A stretch of 64,000 bases of DNA from an uncultured Kordia sp. (lineage in GTDB: Bacteria > Bacteroidota > Bacteroidia > Flavobacteriales > Flavobacteriaceae): positions 124,001-188,000 of the forward strand of contig NZ_CANLEA010000005.1 in the NCBI RefSeq assembly GCF_947489565.1, read 5' to 3'. A program made the translations under genes and the position numbers. This document shows positions 3,100-14,077 of this stretch, one piece after another; position 1 is the stretch's first letter, and every line of letters starts with the position of its first letter. The notes beneath the pieces were generated by a model that was not told where the DNA came from, did not search any database, and saw only the letters and a list, made by a program, of their open reading frames with translations.

Positions 3100-3627
3100 T
3101 TATTTGATGATACGCATACGTTTGAGCATTTTCTTTTCAAATTCCCAGAAAAATTTAAATTGCCCTAGAAGCGTTCCAAATACAATCAATAGTACTTGAT
3201 AAATTGGTAGAATGATGATGATTCGAATCATCCAATATAAAAAACCACCAAAAAAGCCTTCTGGAAAGATAGTTTGTGTAAATCCAACCCATTCTAACAA
3301 CGGTTTTGCAATGCGTACTGAGCTTGTTCCTGTTAAGGCAAATACCAAAAATATGGCGATGATTTCCCAACGATAATTGGTAATCCATTTGCCTTCCAAT
3401 TTTTTAAAACACCACAAAAAGAAACGCAACATGATGTAAAAAAACAAAATGACAGCGACTGTTACGAGTGCGTAATATAGTATTTTGGTTTCATGACGAT
3501 CAATAAAAGAACGAATGATATTTTTTGAAAAAAGATATGCAGTATAGAATAACGAAAGGATTCCTAAAAAAGGAAAGATTAGTTGCCAGTTGTGTTTAAT
3601 TTCCCAACGTTCTTTAAATGAAGTCAT
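3100..3627 (-). CDS. Small integral membrane protein (DUF6787-like)
   Basis: A 175-residue protein with about four hydrophobic segments (roughly residues 16-34, 48-72, 84-106 and 128-155). Two internally similar motifs are visible: ERWEIKHNWQLIFPFLGILS near the start and KWITNYRWEIIAIFLVFALT near residue 80, the second followed by GTSS. This 'W-x-I-x-(S/N)-N-x-Q/E' pattern resembles DUF6787, a flavobacterial membrane family of unknown function. The internal similarity suggests an old duplication of a two-helix unit. It is the first gene of a pair with the DUF695 gene downstream. No catalytic residues stand out. Confidence 0.7.
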   Translation of the reverse strand: MTSFKERWEIKHNWQLIFPFLGILSLFYTAYLFSKNIIRSFIDRHETKILYYALVTVAVILFFYIMLRFFLWCFKKLEGKWITNYRWEIIAIFLVFALTGTSSVRIAKPLLEWVGFTQTIFPEGFFGGFLYWMIRIIIILPIYQVLLIVFGTLLGQFKFFWEFEKKMLKRMRIIK

Positions 3628-4317: not shown

Positions 4318-4548
4318 ATGTTATCAAAAATTACACGATTAGACATTTTTCAACTTTCACTACTTATTTTAACAATTACAGCGATTACTCAGATTTTTAT
4401 TTTTTCTGAAAAAAATATTTATAATGAACAGAGTTCAAGAGCAATACAATTTTTAGGCGCAATGATTGGCTTTGGTCTGACTGCTGCAGCAAGTATTATA
4501 GGCATTATTTGGATCGAGGTTTTCAGAATAAAAAATAGAAAAGCCTAA
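4318..4548 (+). CDS. Small two-helix membrane protein flanking the peptide array
   Basis: A 76-residue protein with two hydrophobic segments (about residues 10-29 and 44-68) and a short basic tail (FRIKNRKA). It has no family I recognise. Its C-terminal half resembles a reading frame at 5767-6009: LGAMIGFG...SIIGIIWIEVFRIK here versus AGAIIACG...CIISIVWIEITKVK there, about 12 identities in 28 positions. The two therefore bracket the four precursor peptides between them. Possible roles are a self-protection or export accessory protein for the peptides, or an unrelated small membrane protein. The position and the second copy are observed; the role is inference. Confidence 0.65.
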   Translation: MLSKITRLDIFQLSLLILTITAITQIFIFSEKNIYNEQSSRAIQFLGAMIGFGLTAAASIIGIIWIEVFRIKNRKA

Positions 4549-6018: not shown

Positions 6019-8937
6019 TTAATGTGATTTTTTATACCAAAACCATCCGCCAAGTACTAACAAACTAATTAATACCGCAATGAGATAGTTTGAGAAATTA
6101 CTTTTTTGTTCAAAAGTAATCGTAGTATTAGCTCCAATATGTGTCCACGCAGACCAATAAAATGGTAGGCGAGAAGCTGGACTGCTAATTTCATCGTTTT
6201 CAAAATATTCAATTTGTGCTTTTTGCAAAGCAATACTTTTGGAATGTCCTTCTTGTAAATAAGTGTAGTACAGTTTCATGATTGTTGCCGAAGATGCATC
6301 TGGAATGCTCCATAAGGTTGCCGTAACACTTGGTATTTTGGCAAAATTGAACGCGCGTGCAAGACTTTGCAAACCTTCTCCTTTTTGATATTTTCCAAAT
6401 CCGGTATTGCATGCGCTCAATGTAATCATATTGGAATTGAAGGTATGATTGTAAATTTCATCTAATCGTAAAAGATTACTGATAGAATCCTGTGTTTTGG
6501 TAAAAATTAAGGATGAAAAGTTAGGATTTTTGGTGTTTATCAACGAATGTGTTGCTAAGTGAATTCCAGAAACATTTTTAGCATGCTTGATAAAGTTTGT
6601 TTTTGTTGCGGCTGAATTTGTCCATGAGTTTCCATGCATGAGTTCTGCAAGTAGCAAAGCTTCATCGTCTGAATATGTCAGTTTTTTCAGGGCTTCTCCA
6701 CGTAAGTTTACATTGGCAGTCATGCTGTTAATGCTATCCTGCGTAAGTCCTTGCAAATAATTTAAGGTATAATCATCTAATTCTAAACCAAAGGAAGCAA
6801 ACGTTTCTTTTGAAGAAGTTGTTGCTGTTGGATTTTGCATCATTTTACAAAAATAATGATAGCCAATAGCGTACTTTTTGATCACAGTATTTTCTAAAGT
6901 TGTCCATGAATCACTTTTTTCTATTAGCAATGCTTGAAAAGGAATGGTATGTAAAATACCATCTGGAATGATCACTAATTCCTTGAAATCACCATTTTTA
7001 ATAGATTGTAATGGTTTTTCTAAAAGTGTTTTATATAAGGAATGTGCCGACTGTAAATATTGTTGTTCCGCAAGGTCTGGCGTATTGTTTATAAAGTCAA
7101 TATCGCTTAATGCTTCTCGATATTGAAAAATAGTCGTTTGAAAATTTTCGGGGAGTTCAATCTGATGTACCTGGAAATCTTGTTTTGTAATCGAGAAAAT
7201 ATACAAGGTTTTAGCGCCTAAAAAGTACTTAATTAATACGGTATGATCGGCAATATTTTTTTGTAAATCGGTTACTAAAATACCTTCGAGATCATTGCGA
7301 AGCTTGTCGAACTTTGGATATTTTTCAGCGATCGCTTTTTTGAGATTTTGAAAATCTTCTTTTGTGCTGATGAGTTTTTTCTGAGAAGCATTAAAATCGA
7401 TAGAGTCTTCTACTTTCCGATTGAGAATTGCTATGTTTTTTTGGTATTCCTGAAACAAGTTAAAAGTATCTTTAGGAATATTCGCAGCTCTCAACGCTTG
7501 TTGTTCATTGACCAATTCGCGTAATACAAATGCATTGGCATGTTGTGATATTTGAAAAGCTTCTCGTTGAAATTTTTGATCTTTCGTGCGTTCAAATAAC
7601 GCCAATTTCACTTTGATGAGTTCTTCATAAAACTCGTTGGTATAGGAACCTAAAATCAATTTAGATTTTGTCTCTGAAAAGTTTAAACGTATCGTTTCGC
7701 TAATATTTACGGCAAATTCATAATTTTCAGCGGCAACTTGCAACCATGTATCATTACCAGATTCTTGGTATTTAGAAAAATAACAATCTCCTTTATTTCG
7801 AAAGATATCCATCAGCCAAATTTCCAATGTCCACATGTCCTTTGAAGGATTTTGAAGCGGATCATGTTCTTGAAAATCAGGAATAAATGAATGCAATGCT
7901 TTTTGGTAACTGTTTAAAGCTTTACCAAATTGTTTGAGCTGTTTATAAGCATCGCCAATAGCAATATGCAATTGACCAATTCTTCGTTGGTTTCCAATAC
8001 TTTTTATGTGTCCTAGACAGCTTTGAAACTGAATAAGAGCTTTGTCTGGTTGTCCAAGTTGCAAATAAATTTGACCAAGCAATTCAATTGCGGAGTTGAA
8101 ATTGCGTTGACATGTATACGTATCTTTAGAAACATCTTTTTTGCAATCACTAGTCAAGCGAATTGTTTCTTTAGTTACTAGTAAAGCCTTTTCATATGCT
8201 TTTAATTCATATAAAATTTCAGCATCAATAAGTTCAAATGTTCCATCTTTATCATCAATAATCTGTTGTGCTTTTTTGAATGTTTTTTGTGCTTTTTCAA
8301 ATTCACTAGCATAAAAATAGGCATCTCCTAAAGCTTTTGTATTCTTCCAAATGGTGAGTGTGTCTTTATCAGTTTTTGCATAGGTAATTGCAATTTTTGA
8401 ATAGTGTTGTGCGTTGCCATAATCGCCCTGCTGTGTATAAATTAGACTAATATTTCCGAGTATTTTAGCTGCTTGTTTATAATCGTTTGCCTCTTTAAAA
8501 TACGCTTGACTCAGTTTGTAATGAGTTAAAGCATCAGAAATACTTCCTAATGCATTTGCTAAATATCCGAGTATGAATTGAATTTTTCCATGTACAAATA
8601 GTTCTGTTTTTGGAAGCTGTGAGATGTTTTTTTCAATCAGATCAATACTGGTTTCATAATCTTTAGCATAATAGCCATTATAAAAAATAGCATTATAAGC
8701 TTTGTACCATAAATTCCATTTTTTTGCTTTTTGGAATATAGTCGCTGCTTGTAATGCTACTTTATTGGCTTCTGTATATTTTTTTTCTTTAGCTAAAACT
8801 TTTACTTTTTGTAATAAGTCTTTCGCAAAAATGGTATCGTTTTGTACAGTTTGTGCGGTTGTTTTTGGTATTAAAAAAACAAAGACACACAGAATAATAA
8901 TATTTTTTATACTTCGTAACTTGTAATAATGGCTCAA
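6019..8937 (-). CDS. TPR-CHAT protease-like protein, exported and anchored by a C-terminal helix
   Basis: A 972-residue protein. Order: signal peptide (about 10-29, ending TTAQ), a long tetratricopeptide region (about 30-450, repeats such as AQHYSKIAITYAKTDKD and ALIQFQSCLGHIKSIGNQRR), a helical linker, and a CHAT (caspase-HetF-associated) domain at about 640-940. His797 (HLATHS) and Cys843 (LSACNTG) form the expected caspase-like dyad. A membrane helix (about 950-967) and KKSH tail follow. CHAT enzymes are cysteine peptidases often controlled by attached TPRs. The signal peptide and tail anchor predict a protease facing the periplasm. The start is TTG at 8937, overlapping the TGA of the cargo gene upstream (TTGA), and no ATG occurs before the TPR region. 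Substrate unknown; neighbouring gene products are the obvious candidates. Confidence 0.85.
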   Translation of the reverse strand: MSHYYKLRSIKNIIILCVFVFLIPKTTAQTVQNDTIFAKDLLQKVKVLAKEKKYTEANKVALQAATIFQKAKKWNLWYKAYNAIFYNGYYAKDYETSIDLIEKNISQLPKTELFVHGKIQFILGYLANALGSISDALTHYKLSQAYFKEANDYKQAAKILGNISLIYTQQGDYGNAQHYSKIAITYAKTDKDTLTIWKNTKALGDAYFYASEFEKAQKTFKKAQQIIDDKDGTFELIDAEILYELKAYEKALLVTKETIRLTSDCKKDVSKDTYTCQRNFNSAIELLGQIYLQLGQPDKALIQFQSCLGHIKSIGNQRRIGQLHIAIGDAYKQLKQFGKALNSYQKALHSFIPDFQEHDPLQNPSKDMWTLEIWLMDIFRNKGDCYFSKYQESGNDTWLQVAAENYEFAVNISETIRLNFSETKSKLILGSYTNEFYEELIKVKLALFERTKDQKFQREAFQISQHANAFVLRELVNEQQALRAANIPKDTFNLFQEYQKNIAILNRKVEDSIDFNASQKKLISTKEDFQNLKKAIAEKYPKFDKLRNDLEGILVTDLQKNIADHTVLIKYFLGAKTLYIFSITKQDFQVHQIELPENFQTTIFQYREALSDIDFINNTPDLAEQQYLQSAHSLYKTLLEKPLQSIKNGDFKELVIIPDGILHTIPFQALLIEKSDSWTTLENTVIKKYAIGYHYFCKMMQNPTATTSSKETFASFGLELDDYTLNYLQGLTQDSINSMTANVNLRGEALKKLTYSDDEALLLAELMHGNSWTNSAATKTNFIKHAKNVSGIHLATHSLINTKNPNFSSLIFTKTQDSISNLLRLDEIYNHTFNSNMITLSACNTGFGKYQKGEGLQSLARAFNFAKIPSVTATLWSIPDASSATIMKLYYTYLQEGHSKSIALQKAQIEYFENDEISSPASRLPFYWSAWTHIGANTTITFEQKSNFSNYLIAVLISLLVLGGWFWYKKSH

Positions 8938-10493
8938 TTTTTAATAACTTTTTTTGTATATATTCCCTTATAAGTTTTTAAAGTTATAAAATACAAACCG
9001 CTTGAAAGATTTTTTATGTCAATTGTTTTGGTAAAAATTGAAGAATCGTTTTTTTGAAGGTCAAATTCTTTGATTACTCTTCCTGAAAAATCAAGTAATT
9101 TTATCGTAAAATCTGAACTTTCTTGTGTACTGAAATTAATATTGAGATTTAAAGCATCTGTTGCAGGATTAGGAAATGCAGTAAACTGAAATTCTTGTTG
9201 GGTTTCTGTTTTTTCAAATTGTGTTGCAGCTTCTGCTTGATTTCGCTGATTAGGATCTATAGAACATACATCATAATCTGGACAATCTCCCATGATGCAA
9301 ATTTTTGAAACATTGGTGTAAAAAACAGGTTGTGTGTCAAATACAATACTCGCTTGATTTTTAATACAATCAACTAAATTCGATTTGGTGCATATCTTAA
9401 ATGAAAAATATGTGGAGGCATCATCGTAGGTGTACATATACGGAATTGTTTGATTGGTGCCAGGCAAATTGATGTTTAAAAAATTAAAATACAATATTCC
9501 ATTATCTTCTAGCCAAGTTGGCTGTACTTCATAATCAATGAGTCTGATATTATCTTTATCAAAAGCACTAGCAAGTTGATCTTTTACATAAACATCTTGT
9601 GCAAAGTATTCTCCATCATTAAAAAAACCGATGGTATAAATTAACTCTTGTTTATCAGATATTCCTTCCTTTATACAGCTCTTATTGACGATCTTAAAAT
9701 TTGGATCATGTGGATATCTGCGTGTTAAGAATTCATAGTTCAAATCTGTATTTTTTCCTCTATCCTTGCAATGAATATTATATTTTACTCTTAGGTCTAA
9801 TTCTTCTCCAATGGCAGTTTTGGTTACTGCAGGGATGTATACATATCGCATTTCGTTGTATTGTAGTCCTGTAAATTGCCAAGATATTTTATAGTTGTGT
9901 ATATTATTATTTAGTGTAGGAGTTCCAGATGAAATTGTATTTGGTGTCACCCAATTATTATACACTTCTATGTTTGGAAAATTAATGTCAATTTCGGCAT
10001 CGTTATAATAAAATTCAATACAACCATCTATAGGAGTTTGAGAAGTCGTATTTGTAAATGCTATGATATAATAATTCTCATATCCATATGCAGTTGCCCA
10101 ACTTGTCATTAAATGTATATCATTGGTCATTTGTATGGTTGGGTTTGTAAACGATGTTGGGTTTGGAGTTCCTGTAGCAGTAAAAGGCGGAACGTCTATG
10201 GTTTCTTTAGGTGGTAAATTGGGGTCATAAGCACGCGCAAAATATGTTTCTGTAGTATATCCAGTAGTACTTGGCTCAAATATGTGTCCAGGATTTTTTT
10301 GTGTACTAAATGTACCATCTCCAAATAAGGTAAAAGTGTATACATCTTCGATATTGTCAGTTCTCATTTCATACTTAACGTATCCGTTTCCATCAGTTAG
10401 AAAATCAATACCAGTATTATTTTGCGCCTGTACTGAAAAACAGCAATACGTCCATAGTAAGGATGTTATGATAAAATTTCTTATGTTTTTCAT
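8934..10493 (-). CDS. Secreted protein with type IX secretion C-terminal sorting domain
   Basis: A 519-residue protein with an N-terminal signal peptide (about 1-23, ending SVQAQ). A large middle part has paired Cys and a region like the surface-protein 'conserved repeat' domain (about 265-400: KQELIYTIGFFNDGEYFAQD, VYVKDQLASAF). The C-terminus (about 440-519) is a T9SS type A sorting domain: FPNPATDALNLNI, LLDFSGRVIKEF, NLSSGLYFITLKT, ending YTKKVIKN. It should cross the outer membrane by type IX secretion and be released or attached at the surface. It lies directly upstream of the CHAT gene with translational coupling, so the two proteins are probably made together. The N-terminal module is not one I recognise. 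Confidence 0.85.
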   Translation of the reverse strand: MKNIRNFIITSLLWTYCCFSVQAQNNTGIDFLTDGNGYVKYEMRTDNIEDVYTFTLFGDGTFSTQKNPGHIFEPSTTGYTTETYFARAYDPNLPPKETIDVPPFTATGTPNPTSFTNPTIQMTNDIHLMTSWATAYGYENYYIIAFTNTTSQTPIDGCIEFYYNDAEIDINFPNIEVYNNWVTPNTISSGTPTLNNNIHNYKISWQFTGLQYNEMRYVYIPAVTKTAIGEELDLRVKYNIHCKDRGKNTDLNYEFLTRRYPHDPNFKIVNKSCIKEGISDKQELIYTIGFFNDGEYFAQDVYVKDQLASAFDKDNIRLIDYEVQPTWLEDNGILYFNFLNINLPGTNQTIPYMYTYDDASTYFSFKICTKSNLVDCIKNQASIVFDTQPVFYTNVSKICIMGDCPDYDVCSIDPNQRNQAEAATQFEKTETQQEFQFTAFPNPATDALNLNINFSTQESSDFTIKLLDFSGRVIKEFDLQKNDSSIFTKTIDIKNLSSGLYFITLKTYKGIYTKKVIKN

Positions 10494-10555
10494 ATTTTAT
10501 TTTTTTGAGATTAAAAATTTACTATGTAGCTTTTAAATATACATAAAAGCAGTAA

Positions 10556-10591
10556 GAAAATATCACATAGCGATGAATCGCTATGTGATAT
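10556..10591 (-). terminator. Long perfect hairpin between the lipoprotein and cargo genes
   Basis: A 14-pair perfect stem (10560-10573 with 10578-10591) closes on a four-base loop. On the minus strand it follows the lipoprotein gene and is trailed by ATTTTCTT, a weak T run. It probably ends the lipoprotein transcript and separates it from the cargo-CHAT pair. Confidence 0.6.
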
Positions 10592-10610
10592 AAAGTGTTA
10601 GCAATTTAGT

Positions 10611-12461
10611 TTAGTTGTCTCTAAGAATGTGTGCATCTCCAGTAATGGTATTTGTACCGCCAAACTGATCGATATAAGTTCCTGAAAAACTAACATCAAT
10701 ATAGGCACCTACACCACCAATACTTGTGATGTTAAATACAATACTTCCTGTAATACCTGTAGAAGAAACTGGATCAATACCCGTTGAAGTTCCCAAACGT
10801 TTTATGGCCATTGAAGGTGTTCCTGTAGCAAATGGATTGCTATCAAAAGGATACGTACCTAAAGTTGTAGCATTCCCAATAAGCATTGTGCCACCTCCAA
10901 TAGGAGAAGTAGTTCCCATAGAAAGGTACATTCCTTGTTCAATATTTGCCCATGGACTTTGAATTTCATAGACCACTGGGTTTCCATTAATGCTATATCT
11001 AATATACTCTGGAGCTAATCCGCCACAAGCAGTTAAATTTGCGGTAGCGTTTGGATTGGCAATTACTGTGGTAGAAGCAATAACTTGTCCTGTACCTACA
11101 TCAGCACCTTCAACATTAATAGTTGCAGGAATACTACATGATACGGCACTATAACTATGTGTTCCAGCTGTGACTAAAGTAGTTCCAAAAAATTGACCGC
11201 CACCGCTAGAGTAGGTAACATATCCATTTGTTACAGGAAGTCCGTTACAATCCAATACAGTTCCCGATACGTTTATGGAAGAAACGGATACTAAGGAGAC
11301 TGGAATTGTAATACTCGTAGCGCCTGTGAAAGGACCAAAATTAGGATCGTTATAAAGAACAGTTCCACAATGATCCGTAATTGTTAAGGTCATTGTTTGA
11401 TTCGTTGGAATTTTTCCACTAACGTTTCCATTGTTATCCGTAATAGCATAACGTGAAAAACTGTTATAATTGATTGTTACTGTAAGACCAGAAACAGGAA
11501 CTAATGTTCCAGCATCAACTACGGTAGCATTAAAGTTGGCTACTGGGAATGGTGCATCACAATTCCAAAAAGAAAAATGATTTACAACTGCTTTATAGTA
11601 TGCTCCATCTTTATAGGCAACAGTTTCTTCAAACCACGTGCCTGTTTCTTTAATGAATGACCAAAATGGAACTTGACTTGGAGCCGATGCCATTTGGTTA
11701 GGATGGATAGGCATTAAAATTGTTGCAGGATTAGAAATTTGTAATTTTTGTCCCATACTTCCTCGAAGTTCAACATGTACCATTCCGTACGAACCTAAAG
11801 CAACTTCTTGATAATTTCTGTCAAGTCCATATAATTCTCCAGGCATTGTATTGGCAGTTTCTTCAGATAAAGGATCTAAATGATTTACGGTTACTGCTAC
11901 ATTTCCTGAATATGGGTTTCCGTTTTCGTCTACAAAACCTCCGTCAAAAGCTATAATAACTTCTCTTCCTAATTCTGTTCTCACTGAAACTTCACCTCCC
12001 GAAGAAGAAATAGTTTGTGCATTTTCTAAACTAAAGAGTTTTATAGTAAAGGTATTTTCATTATTATCTCCATAATTTGGCACCATAACTCTTGAACCGT
12101 CTGTGTACCCTGAAGCAGTTGCAGTTGCGTATGCAAAATTTTCATATACCACAGCACCAATAAAAGTAACAATTCCATTATCATCAGTTACTTGTTGTTG
12201 TCCGCCTAAAGTAACCGTAGCACCAGCAATTGGTTGGTCTCCACGACCTATTACACGACCAATAAAGTTTGTTCGCACACGTCTTCCTTGAAATTCTCTG
12301 AGCGCTTCCCTTATACGATCAGTGTTTACGTATTGTGCTTTTTGTACAACTTGTGTTGCGTTGGAGGATTCCGAAAGTGGTTCATTTTCTTTTTGACATG
12401 CTAGTAAGGCTATCGCTATGATACCAAACATTGCCAAATACTTAAAAAGGTTTTTTTTCAT
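10611..12461 (-). CDS. Surface lipoprotein with carboxypeptidase-like regulatory domains
   Basis: A 616-residue protein beginning MKKNLFKYLAMFG with a lipobox at IALLAC (Cys about residue 22). ATG 12461 is preferred to the longer frame from 12515 because it starts the signal peptide directly. At least three beta-sandwich modules of the carboxypeptidase regulatory type are visible: about 45-120 (GRGDQPIAGATVTLGG then VTDDNGIVTF), about 310-385 (AGTLVPVSGLTVTINYN, ITDNNGNVSG) and about 400-450 (VSGTVLDCNGLPVTNGYVTY). A middle domain has PGELYGLDRNYQEVALGSYG and HFSFWNCDAPFPVANFN. The protein looks like a surface scaffold rather than an enzyme. It is transcribed divergently from the sigma-factor gene and is probably part of the same locus. 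Confidence 0.8.
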   Translation of the reverse strand: MKKNLFKYLAMFGIIAIALLACQKENEPLSESSNATQVVQKAQYVNTDRIREALREFQGRRVRTNFIGRVIGRGDQPIAGATVTLGGQQQVTDDNGIVTFIGAVVYENFAYATATASGYTDGSRVMVPNYGDNNENTFTIKLFSLENAQTISSSGGEVSVRTELGREVIIAFDGGFVDENGNPYSGNVAVTVNHLDPLSEETANTMPGELYGLDRNYQEVALGSYGMVHVELRGSMGQKLQISNPATILMPIHPNQMASAPSQVPFWSFIKETGTWFEETVAYKDGAYYKAVVNHFSFWNCDAPFPVANFNATVVDAGTLVPVSGLTVTINYNSFSRYAITDNNGNVSGKIPTNQTMTLTITDHCGTVLYNDPNFGPFTGATSITIPVSLVSVSSINVSGTVLDCNGLPVTNGYVTYSSGGGQFFGTTLVTAGTHSYSAVSCSIPATINVEGADVGTGQVIASTTVIANPNATANLTACGGLAPEYIRYSINGNPVVYEIQSPWANIEQGMYLSMGTTSPIGGGTMLIGNATTLGTYPFDSNPFATGTPSMAIKRLGTSTGIDPVSSTGITGSIVFNITSIGGVGAYIDVSFSGTYIDQFGGTNTITGDAHILRDN

Positions 12462-12643
12462 GATTAAAAATTGATTAAAAATTGTTCCTACTCTATTGAA
12501 AGCTTTTCGGATCACGCTTTTTCTGTTAATTAGTGGTTAGGTTGATGTACTATTTGTGCTATTTTTTGAATGATGTTGTGATGATAATGAGGTGATCGTT
12601 GTTTAAAAATGTTTATAATTTGTAGTTTTATTTGTCATATAAC

Positions 12644-12685
12644 TTTCGCGAAAAAGAAACGTGACAATTTTTTTAGTCACATTTC
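12644..12685. promoter_or_regulatory. Inverted repeats in the divergent region between the lipoprotein and sigma-factor genes
   Basis: Two inverted repeats lie side by side. One is the ten-base palindrome TTTCGCGAAA (12644-12653). The other is GAAACGTGAC (12656-12665) paired with GTCACATTTC (12676-12685), nine of ten matching. They sit 59-100 bases before the sigma-factor ATG. They could be regulator sites controlling both directions. No standard TAnnTTTG box was found here. Confidence 0.45.
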
Positions 12686-12743
12686 GTTTAATTTTTATTT
12701 ATACTAGAGATGAAGACTTTTTTCTTTAGTTTTATAGGAAATT

Positions 12744-13349
12744 ATGAAACATCAACCTGCCAAAAATATTACAGACGAAAAGCGTACTTATGCACACCAA
12801 AACTTTGGGCTTAGTGAAGCAGATTTTGAAGAGATGCTTCAAAAAATGAAAGAAGGTGATGATGGTTTGTTTGAAAAGATATTTTTAGCGCAGTTTGAAG
12901 AGACGATTTCTTATTTAATGTACCGTTATAAAGTCAACCAATCCAGTGCGTATGACGCTACTATGGAAGCGTTGTTAAAGTTTAGAAAGCGATTGTTAGA
13001 AGGGAAAATAGCGTATTTCAATATGCGTTTTTTGTTTACGCAAATCGCTGGGCAGTTTTTGATTGCTTCATTGAAAGAGAATAATAAATCGGTAGAAATA
13101 ACAGTCAATGATGATGTTGGAGAGGAAGAAGAGGAGAAGATAGATGATGCAATTCTTGATTATTTGGACATTGCTTGGAAACAATTAGGAGAACAGTGCA
13201 GTAAATTATTAGAAAATTATTATTACAAAAAAATAGCGTTAAAAGAAATAGCAAAAAAACTCGGCAAATCGGATGTAGCATTAAGAAAGCAAAAACAGCG
13301 ATGTTTAGAAGCATTGCGATCCTTTTTCCTAAAACAGTATAAACCTTAA
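12744..13349 (+). CDS. RNA polymerase sigma-70 family factor (ECF-like)
   Basis: A 201-residue protein with a region-2-like N-terminal part (about 30-115: LFEKIFLAQFEETISYLMYR, AYDATMEALLKF, FNMRFLFTQIAGQFL) and a region-4 helix-turn-helix (about 145-195: YYYKKIALKEIAKKLGKSDV, ALRKQKQRCLEALRSFF). An acidic linker (GEEEEEK) lies between them. This is the layout of small alternative sigma factors that direct polymerase to a limited promoter set. The membrane TPR gene follows 38 bases later. The divergent minus-strand genes (lipoprotein, cargo, CHAT) are likely targets, but this is inferred from position only. Confidence 0.8.
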   Translation: MKHQPAKNITDEKRTYAHQNFGLSEADFEEMLQKMKEGDDGLFEKIFLAQFEETISYLMYRYKVNQSSAYDATMEALLKFRKRLLEGKIAYFNMRFLFTQIAGQFLIASLKENNKSVEITVNDDVGEEEEEKIDDAILDYLDIAWKQLGEQCSKLLENYYYKKIALKEIAKKLGKSDVALRKQKQRCLEALRSFFLKQYKP

Positions 13350-13387
13350 TGACTACCATTGCAGGCATGTAATGGGAAAAAAGTATA

Positions 13388-14077
13388 ATGGATCATAAAA
13401 AATATACAGAAGGAACAGAACTTTCGGGAGATGAACTTGAAGCAATTAGCGAGAAATTGATTCAAGCGAAGTTTGATCGAGAGAAACGAAAAGCCTGGGA
13501 GCATCGGCTTAGAGATGAATATGGAGTAACGCGTGAATCTACTCCTAAAAAGAAAAAATTTCCCTTTTCGAACTTAGCAATTGCCGCAATTTTAATGTGT
13601 ATTGCAGGGATTGTAACATACAGTGTTGTTTCATATTTGACGCCAAGCTATGATTCGGTTGTCAATGAATCTATTGAACAATTGATTACGATAGACAATC
13701 ACGCTGTTGTGACACGTGGAAACAAATTGGTTAATGAAGAAGTTTTAGCAGCTATCAATGCCTATGAAGATAAGAAATATGACGAAAGTATCGCGATATG
13801 GAAAAAATTGATTTCTTCCGAAAAAATACGAGGAACTTTCCATTATAATTTAGCATTGTGTTATTTACAAAAAACACCTCCCGAAACAAGTAGTGCCATT
13901 ACAAATTTAGAAGCAGCTCGTAAAACGAAAACCATTCAAGAAGAAGCAAATTGGGCATTGGCTTTAGCGTATTTACAAATAGATCAAAAAGATAAAGCAA
14001 AAAAAGTTTTACAAGAGATTATTCAAGCGAAAGCATATAAATATAAAAGAGCAGAAATAATACTAGCAAAGCTGTAA
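13388..14077 (+). CDS. Single-pass membrane protein with periplasmic TPR repeats, in anti-sigma position
   Basis: A 229-residue protein. Residues 1-57 are hydrophilic, helical and rich in Lys/Arg/Glu (KFDREKRKAWEHRLRDEYGV), followed by KKKK and one membrane helix (about 60-84). The rest (about 115-229) is tetratricopeptide-like (AINAYEDKKYDESIAIWKKL, HYNLALCYLQ, ANWALALAYLQIDQKDKAKK). The positive-inside rule puts the N-terminus in the cytoplasm and the TPRs in the periplasm. Following a sigma gene by 38 bases, it has the layout of a transmembrane anti-sigma regulator whose outside domain senses a partner. It lacks a recognisable zinc-type anti-sigma domain, so this role is inference. Confidence 0.75.
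   Translation: MDHKKYTEGTELSGDELEAISEKLIQAKFDREKRKAWEHRLRDEYGVTRESTPKKKKFPFSNLAIAAILMCIAGIVTYSVVSYLTPSYDSVVNESIEQLITIDNHAVVTRGNKLVNEEVLAAINAYEDKKYDESIAIWKKLISSEKIRGTFHYNLALCYLQKTPPETSSAITNLEAARKTKTIQEEANWALALAYLQIDQKDKAKKVLQEIIQAKAYKYKRAEIILAKL

Follow-up and report, generated by a model that had tools for sequence, protein, structure and literature searches.

In RseA and DegS, a membrane-crossing anti-sigma factor is combined with a periplasm-facing protease, which belongs to a family other than CHAT. Few CHAT proteases have, to our knowledge, known targets. Here we analyse a locus from an uncultured Kordia sp. (Bacteroidota; Flavobacteriaceae; assembly GCF_947489565.1, contig NZ_CANLEA010000005.1, positions 124,001 to 188,000). 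This whole stretch of 64,000 nucleotides is referred to as the window, and coordinates without a locus or contig label are window positions. In the locus, the genes of an extracytoplasmic function (ECF) sigma factor and of a single-pass membrane protein with tetratricopeptide repeats (TPR) lie opposite to a gene of a protein with TPR and CHAT domains. We give an even chance to the reading that the TPR protein restrains the sigma factor, that the CHAT protein releases it from the periplasmic side, and that the module thereby turns on its own genes, surface genes and a small peptide gene.

In Craspase, as described in PMC10028731, Csx29 works as part of a complex with Cas7-11 and needs target RNA for its activation. 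Its substrate Csx30 binds an ECF-like sigma factor and inhibits it, and cleavage by Csx29 relieves the inhibition; RseA/DegS-like regulated proteolysis of anti-sigma factors is also discussed there. Common to both arrangements are a TPR-CHAT protein and an ECF-like sigma factor under the control of an inhibitor, which in our module is a proposed one, and Csx29 is the top fold match of the window CHAT protein. In contrast to Csx29, however, the latter should by prediction be an exported, tail-anchored protein, and the role of inhibitor is assigned to the transmembrane TPR protein. The window sigma factor itself does not fall into the CASP-sigma family of Craspase (NF041236, 15.9 bits versus a cut-off of 100).

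DdvS from Myxococcus xanthus becomes active once DdvA is inactivated (PMC4374960) and controls a defence island (PMC12288465). Here the likeness consists in an ECF sigma factor and a transmembrane anti-sigma factor, and the DdvA chain is named a CHAT domain-containing protein. DdvA unites anti-sigma, transmembrane and CHAT-like regions in one chain, whereas two genes are found in the window and in 52 complete modules, and our module has surface-protein neighbours. For ECF54, CHAT, subtilase and carboxypeptidase proteins occur in the gene context and proteolytic control has been proposed, but this group is proposed to act without an anti-sigma factor; the model protein is from Geodermatophilus (PMC8999054). 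ECF sigma and TPR genes have further been reported near caspase-domain systems (PMC8195603).

In the original prediction, no described system was known to have this exact set of genes. Titles and abstract openings in the literature contained no description of a sigma/TPR/CHAT module, although the key papers on DdvA and on ECF classification may hold one. The claim has to be narrowed, since DdvS/DdvA, the CASP-sigma arm of Craspase and ECF54 are related precedents. The proposed kind of circuit is known, namely a sigma factor freed by regulated proteolysis; apparently new are the sensor split into TPR and CHAT proteins, the mirror-image promoter and the peptide gene in the subtype to which the window belongs.

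The three-gene core and its recurrence

The five open reading frames (ORFs) predicted for this locus were all recovered with the same positions and identities among the window ORFs and in profile scans. As read from the sequences, the conserved core is formed by three of them, which encode the ECF sigma factor, the single-pass TPR protein and the exported, tail-anchored TPR-CHAT protein. The sigma gene (12744..13349, plus strand) encodes 201 residues, and profile matches identify the product as an ECF sigma factor with sigma regions 2 and 4 only. The family profile TIGR02937 gives 39.7 bits for the window protein (cut-off 42.9) and is matched by all 16 members of the sigma family that were scanned (E<=0.001); the profile of the sigma family in turn finds solved ECF sigma factors (E 2e-12), and the match covers positions 3-180 of 185. 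Orthologs in four Kordia genomes (G002, G005, G006 and G008) are 69-77% identical to the window sigma factor. A phage origin of the gene was considered and rejected, as no match was found among phage records.

An association of the CHAT gene with the sigma-TPR pair is supported in silico by the recurrence of the trio. This genome contains eight CHAT matches, seven of which are full-length, and near each of the seven lie a sigma gene and the gene of a single-pass TPR protein. The eighth (L015, 303 residues) is without such partners and was set aside as a different protein. Among relatives, 20 genomes were searched for CHAT at E<=1e-20 and 48 further loci were listed in 12 of them; both partners are present at 45 of these 48 (stretches of 12-19.5 kb); L080 and L082 lack them, and L090 ends with its contig. 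CHAT-profile matches of 564-658 residues in L057, L087 and L097 are probably TPR-only proteins and were left uncounted.

The 52 complete loci are divergent in 40 cases, codirectional in eight and convergent in four. Between the sigma and CHAT genes of the divergent loci, 100 of 102 genes carry a signal or a lipobox according to a crude classifier, and one more has a type IX secretion system (T9SS)-like end only; such ends total 22/102. The signal test is passed by 45/94 control genes (56/111 if multi-transmembrane proteins are counted). No surface genes lie between the sigma-TPR pair and CHAT at the eight codirectional loci.

For a comparison of subtypes, 49 of the 52 modules were used, since the TPR gene of the other three is cut by the end of the stretch; cluster thresholds were chosen by us. 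TPR and CHAT proteins form clusters of identical membership save two small shifts (L063 and L057/L075), and the sigma clusters are equal to these or to unions of them. The distance matrices of the three proteins correlate with Spearman coefficients of 0.66, 0.53 and 0.51, values that were reached in 0/999 permutations.

The module extends beyond these genomes. A set of 80 CHAT loci from named genomes, reduced to 75 by removal of five repeats of loci already in hand, includes many short contigs. A sigma-TPR pair is found at 34 of the 75, and at 14 of the 34 loci that are flanked by 6 kb or more on either side; the pair-bearing organisms include Marinifilum, Labilibaculum, Fulvivirga, Splendidivirga and Aquimarina. 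CHAT as a sufficient marker of the module was discarded, because 41 of the 75 loci have no recognisable pair. Both loci of Saprospira grandis and all seven of Aureispira are of this kind; therefore the TPR-CHAT family extends further than the module. A sample of the phylum (198 genomes) gave 94 TPR matches. At least 43 have a sigma gene within 300 bp, at least 62 have CHAT within 8 kb and at least 26 have both, while 15 have neither among the matches listed. Sixteen such loci from the phylum were picked because TPR and CHAT genes were already close together. The sigma gene directly adjoins the TPR gene at 11 of them, three of which are from outside the class (L198, L200, L203); it is about 4 kb away at one and absent at four. 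At L201, L202, L204 and L205, also from outside the class, the TPR gene adjoins CHAT and no sigma gene was found in the stretch examined. Two to four tandem ORFs of the TPR-CHAT type without a sigma-TPR pair were seen at L136, L162 and L175 (metagenome-assembled genome HKST-UBA03 and Aureispira sp. CCB-QB1).

The window locus has two further genes. A T9SS cargo gene (8934..10493, minus strand), whose product has DUF7619 and a sorting domain (Pfam Por_Secre_tail, TIGR04183), overlaps the CHAT gene by 4 nucleotides, and a protein with a T9SS-like end occupies its place at all five orthologous loci. The adjacent slot is variable. It holds in the window a surface lipoprotein of 616 residues counted from its ATG (10611..12461, minus strand; lipobox LLAC), which has weak Pfam scores under the cut-offs (CarboxypepD_reg). 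A lipoprotein of the same kind is found in L050, T9SS-type proteins are found instead in L049, L051 and L052, and in L052 an extra lipoprotein of 202 residues stands beside the T9SS-type protein. Because this slot varies between orthologs, the set of five genes was rejected as a conserved unit in the co-occurrence check. Small transmembrane proteins of like make-up adjoin the CHAT gene in the window subtype (window 4318-4548; L051 11609-11803 and 12087-12317).

Predicted topology of the TPR and CHAT proteins

The usual layout of a sigma/anti-sigma pair is a sigma gene beside the gene of a membrane protein whose N-terminal segment lies in the cytoplasm. The TPR gene (13388..14077, plus strand; TPR matches) lies directly behind the sigma gene, and hydropathy and charge predict a single transmembrane segment at about residues 63-84, rich in Lys and Arg on its N-terminal side. 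About 60 residues are thus predicted to be cytoplasmic and the TPR part to be periplasmic. Lys and Arg are more frequent before the segment than after it in 49 of 50 family members and equal in one. In gene position and predicted topology the protein corresponds to a membrane anti-sigma factor, and its original description as a single-pass protein in anti-sigma position is upheld. The AlphaFold model has a mean predicted local distance difference test (pLDDT) score of 82, with 67-77 over residues 1-50. All 50 PDB matches listed for the model are TPR proteins and give no fold evidence for an anti-sigma domain in the N-terminal part. The TPR proteins of most subtypes share the N-terminal motif LIxxYLxGxLSxxExxxF, which presumably resembles the N-terminal motif of other anti-sigma factors from Bacteroidota.

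The CHAT gene (6019..8937, minus strand) encodes 972 residues with an N-terminal signal, TPRs and a CHAT domain at residues 630-936 (PF12770, 155 bits versus a cut-off of 24). The dyad His797/Cys843 was found exactly at the residues predicted. It is kept in all 55 CHAT proteins, despite an identity of only 18-24% between the window protein and those of other subtypes (orthologs 57-60%), which suggests that catalysis matters. Besides the N-terminal hydrophobic stretch, the window protein has a second one near the C-terminus, which is followed by KKSH. A C-terminal hydrophobic stretch with a basic tail is present in 54/55 family members and an N-terminal hydrophobic stretch in 47/55. From these features, the caspase-like protein should be exported and tail-anchored, facing the periplasm. 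The best PDB match of its AlphaFold model (mean pLDDT 87) is Csx29 from Craspase (E 2e-16), and the next are separase and the transmembrane anti-sigma factor DdvA; with the CHAT sequence profile, the DdvA chain is the best match in the PDB (E 5e-6).

Promoter-like elements and GG-leader peptide genes

When the window locus is aligned to the four orthologous ones from Kordia, the region between the sigma and surface genes contains back-to-back mirror elements of the form GTCACRTT(T)-N14-TATA at 5/5 loci. Besides the stretch immediately before the sigma ATG, they are the strongest shared intergenic feature. The element pointing toward the sigma-TPR pair, GTCACATTTC-N14-TATACTAG, is located at 12676..12707 on the plus strand, and its mirror copy toward the lipoprotein, T9SS and CHAT genes, GTCACGTTTC-N14-TATATGAC, at 12634..12665 on the minus strand (23.9 and 22.7 bits, both as training sites). 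A search of the 64-kb window for GTCACRTTT-N14-TATA, a pattern written after the sites had been seen, gave two matches, both at these sites, with 0.02 expected. A looser pattern found the same two alone, which is insignificant with 1.17 expected. In the window subtype (W), exact mirroring is limited to GTCAC and the equally spaced TATA and rests on an alignment of the 32-nucleotide element.

The elements of two other subtypes are mirrored as well and differ in sequence from those of the window subtype. In subtype B, GTTAATATT occurs 28 nucleotides before the sigma ATG and 51 nucleotides before the divergent gene (8/8 loci each); in subtype E, GTTAACCTTT occurs 29 nucleotides before the sigma ATG and 51-52 nucleotides before the divergent gene (6/6 each). 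Three inverted 8-mers are common to all orthologs in B and three in E, as opposed to none that are reversed, complemented or direct; at length 6, a few control words turn up. Additional copies within the same loci comprise six of GTTAACC in E and one of GTTAATATT in B, and five of these seven are intragenic. A loose resemblance in subtype D (TTMCCCWATAT) was noticed by eye and left uncounted. The proposal that the sigma factor drives the minus-strand genes thereby gains support in silico, and the mirror elements at all five orthologous loci indicate that it is probably correct.

The original prediction also drew on the adjacent peptide array. This argument fails, because peptide genes are so common in Kordia: each of 11 genomes has 115 to at least 150 matches to GG-leader peptide precursors (E<=0.01), and four of them have at least 150. 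The Kordia peptide repertoire is unusually large. No sigma-type element was found before the four precursors of the window itself at E up to 10. Evidence for a link comes instead from peptide genes elsewhere. A model (R1) made from 10 half-sites at sigma loci only was used to search the five subtype-W genomes, and the best 150 candidates per genome were scored. Six non-training matches with E<1 were obtained, and behind four of these the ATG of a small GG-leader peptide gene follows on the same strand at a distance of about 50 nucleotides (in G008, G005, G002 and G006, the last on contig C141). Two weaker sites in L049 and L050, from a local search only, precede a peptide gene behind the TPR gene. 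With a second model that includes the peptide sites of relatives (R2), the best match in Kordia genomes without a module or remnant (G001, G003, G007, G009 and G010) is no better than E 0.07, and the four matches examined among these (L186, L190, L191, L192) do not precede a peptide gene. A link between sigma factor and peptide gene is supported in the window subtype.

Subtype E behaves differently. The 13 best matches of its own model (R3; E<1e-4) are all at subtype-E sigma loci, 12 being training sites and one new (G007), with no further match better than E 0.017 among the best 150 candidates per genome. The action of the subtype-E sigma factor therefore appears to be confined to its own locus. 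Within 200 nucleotides of subtype-E elements there is no leader-type peptide gene; a stray GTTAACC in L061 is found 22 nucleotides before a GG-containing ORF of 60 residues, which is of a different type.

Further observations concern the peptide genes themselves. Those with an element have a common inverted repeat, approximately AGAAAGAAGTCA...TGGCTTCTATA, in the 5' leader (L051 at about 3464-3490, L179, L180, L183, L049 and L050). At 5/5 loci of subtype F (L011, L056, L058, L059, L060), the CHAT gene is followed on the same strand by one or two peptide genes. The leader profile of class I lanthipeptide precursors, NF038153, is not matched over its cut-off of 22: three of the four window peptides were scanned with one match of 18.5 bits, and of seven regulon peptides six gave 12.7-16.4 bits and the seventh no match.

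One Kordia genome (G004) links these elements by their loss. Its flanking genes are 80-98% identical to those of the window, but the sigma and TPR genes have decayed in place (L098 9346-10086, contig C42). A leader remnant of 22 residues is left at the position of the peptide gene in orthologs, and an ortholog of the T9SS cargo was not found at E<=1e-8. The five CHAT matches of this genome are only 27-38% identical to the window protein, as opposed to 57-60% for orthologs, and all belong to other subtypes. A second peptide site retains its promoter-like element intact but has no peptide gene behind it (L184 5146, contig C67). Many other peptide genes are present in this genome. The pattern is that of a regulon being lost together.

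Proposed release of the sigma factor and rival explanations

At rest, the sigma factor would be held at the inner membrane by the cytoplasmic N-terminal part of the TPR protein. If its predicted export is correct, the CHAT protein lies in the same compartment as the TPR domain of this restrainer and apart from the sigma factor, and would meet that domain on the periplasmic side. An envelope cue, perhaps via the co-transcribed lipoprotein or T9SS protein, may activate CHAT, which would then cut the TPR protein or otherwise loosen its hold, and the sigma factor would be freed. It would read two back-to-back promoters, the rightward one for itself and its restrainer and the leftward one for the surface proteins and CHAT; transcription of its own module would give positive feedback. 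In the window subtype, it would also read a small peptide gene of the GG-leader type outside this locus. Because of the Craspase and DdvA precedents, release of the sigma factor by CHAT is our best guess, and it probably occurs via cleavage. Both the predicted topology and the conserved dyad agree with a model of cleavage or release, as do the two solved precedents. Set against a CHAT protein that is a non-cleaving partner or an output protease, release by CHAT stands about level.

A number of observations weigh against this reading. Concerning the restrainer, no anti-sigma family is among the eight Pfam families listed for the window TPR protein, nor among the 25 of 89 listed for 43 TPR proteins, and the cytoplasmic part of the window protein has just about 60 residues and deviates from the N-terminal motif of other subtypes. 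Concerning the elements, no inverted words of length 6-8 occur in every ortholog of subtypes W, C, D and F, and the rightward elements of B and E, just 28-29 nucleotides from the sigma ATG, do not have the -10-like sequence of the leftward copies. Two of the six best non-training R1 sites (L181, L182) are away from peptide genes. The R2 element of this genome, which lies at C11:148382 and is followed by the peptide gene at C11:148464, scores weakly (E 0.15, GTCACC), and all genome searches with element models scored just the best 150 candidates per genome. Concerning the module as a whole, two Kordia CHAT loci are without partners (L080, L082), nearest neighbours agree among the three trees for just 27-30 of 49 modules, and CHAT without a recognisable pair is common, also at 20 of the 34 named loci with at least 6 kb on each side. 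At one subtype-E locus (G007), finally, the sigma, TPR and surface genes are intact while CHAT is reduced to an ORF of 82 residues. This remnant keeps the two ends only (L196 4506-4754, contig C33), which may reflect a real loss or an assembly fault. In both cases the sigma-TPR pair can apparently stand without CHAT.

This last case would also fit a role of CHAT in the same sigma/anti-sigma circuit as a non-cleaving sensor or scaffold that adjusts the grip of the TPR protein, i.e. as a version of DdvA in separate genes. DdvA, a transmembrane anti-sigma factor, bears a CHAT-like region within its one chain, and 17 of 43 sigma-TPR pairs have no CHAT within 8 kb among the matches listed. The retention of His and Cys in all 55 proteins of otherwise divergent subtypes, however, suggests that catalysis matters, and we regard a non-cleaving role as a serious but tentative alternative.

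CHAT may also be an output of the circuit, a sigma-induced protease whose task would be to mature or remove the GG-leader peptide or the surface proteins expressed with it. In the divergent set the CHAT gene comes last, with its short overlap with the cargo gene, and the sigma-type element also stands before peptide genes. CHAT nevertheless accompanies the sigma-TPR pair where the surface genes differ or, as at the eight codirectional loci, where none intervene, and the elements of subtype E have no leader-type peptide gene near them. An output role thus seems rather unlikely to us. That the genes are mere neighbours, with mirror elements owned by another regulator, is very improbable, for although only position and subtype match tie the elements to the sigma factor, the trio recurs in different subtypes and also in a further class of the phylum, its subtype clusters match and it has decayed jointly in G004.

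The model of release by CHAT can be extended to an envelope peptide-response circuit, a free-standing relative of the protease-sigma arm of Craspase. The sigma-controlled GG-leader peptide would be exported and sensed by the periplasmic TPR domains, CHAT would cut the anti-sigma factor, and peptide, surface coat and switch would be amplified jointly; the seven paralogs with their subtype-specific promoters would then be insulated parallel channels. We consider this extension speculative and its chances as slim.

If release of the sigma factor by CHAT is true, a large set of TPR-CHAT proteins from Bacteroidota would control dedicated sigma factors from the periplasmic side, and every one of these would have a promoter sequence and surface genes of its own. 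The adjoining TPR protein would be a concrete candidate substrate for CHAT, and the module a plausible relative of the Csx29/Csx30/CASP-sigma arrangement outside CRISPR. A promoter sequence matched to a sigma subtype would then predict the affiliation of an orphan lipoprotein, T9SS cargo or GG-leader peptide.

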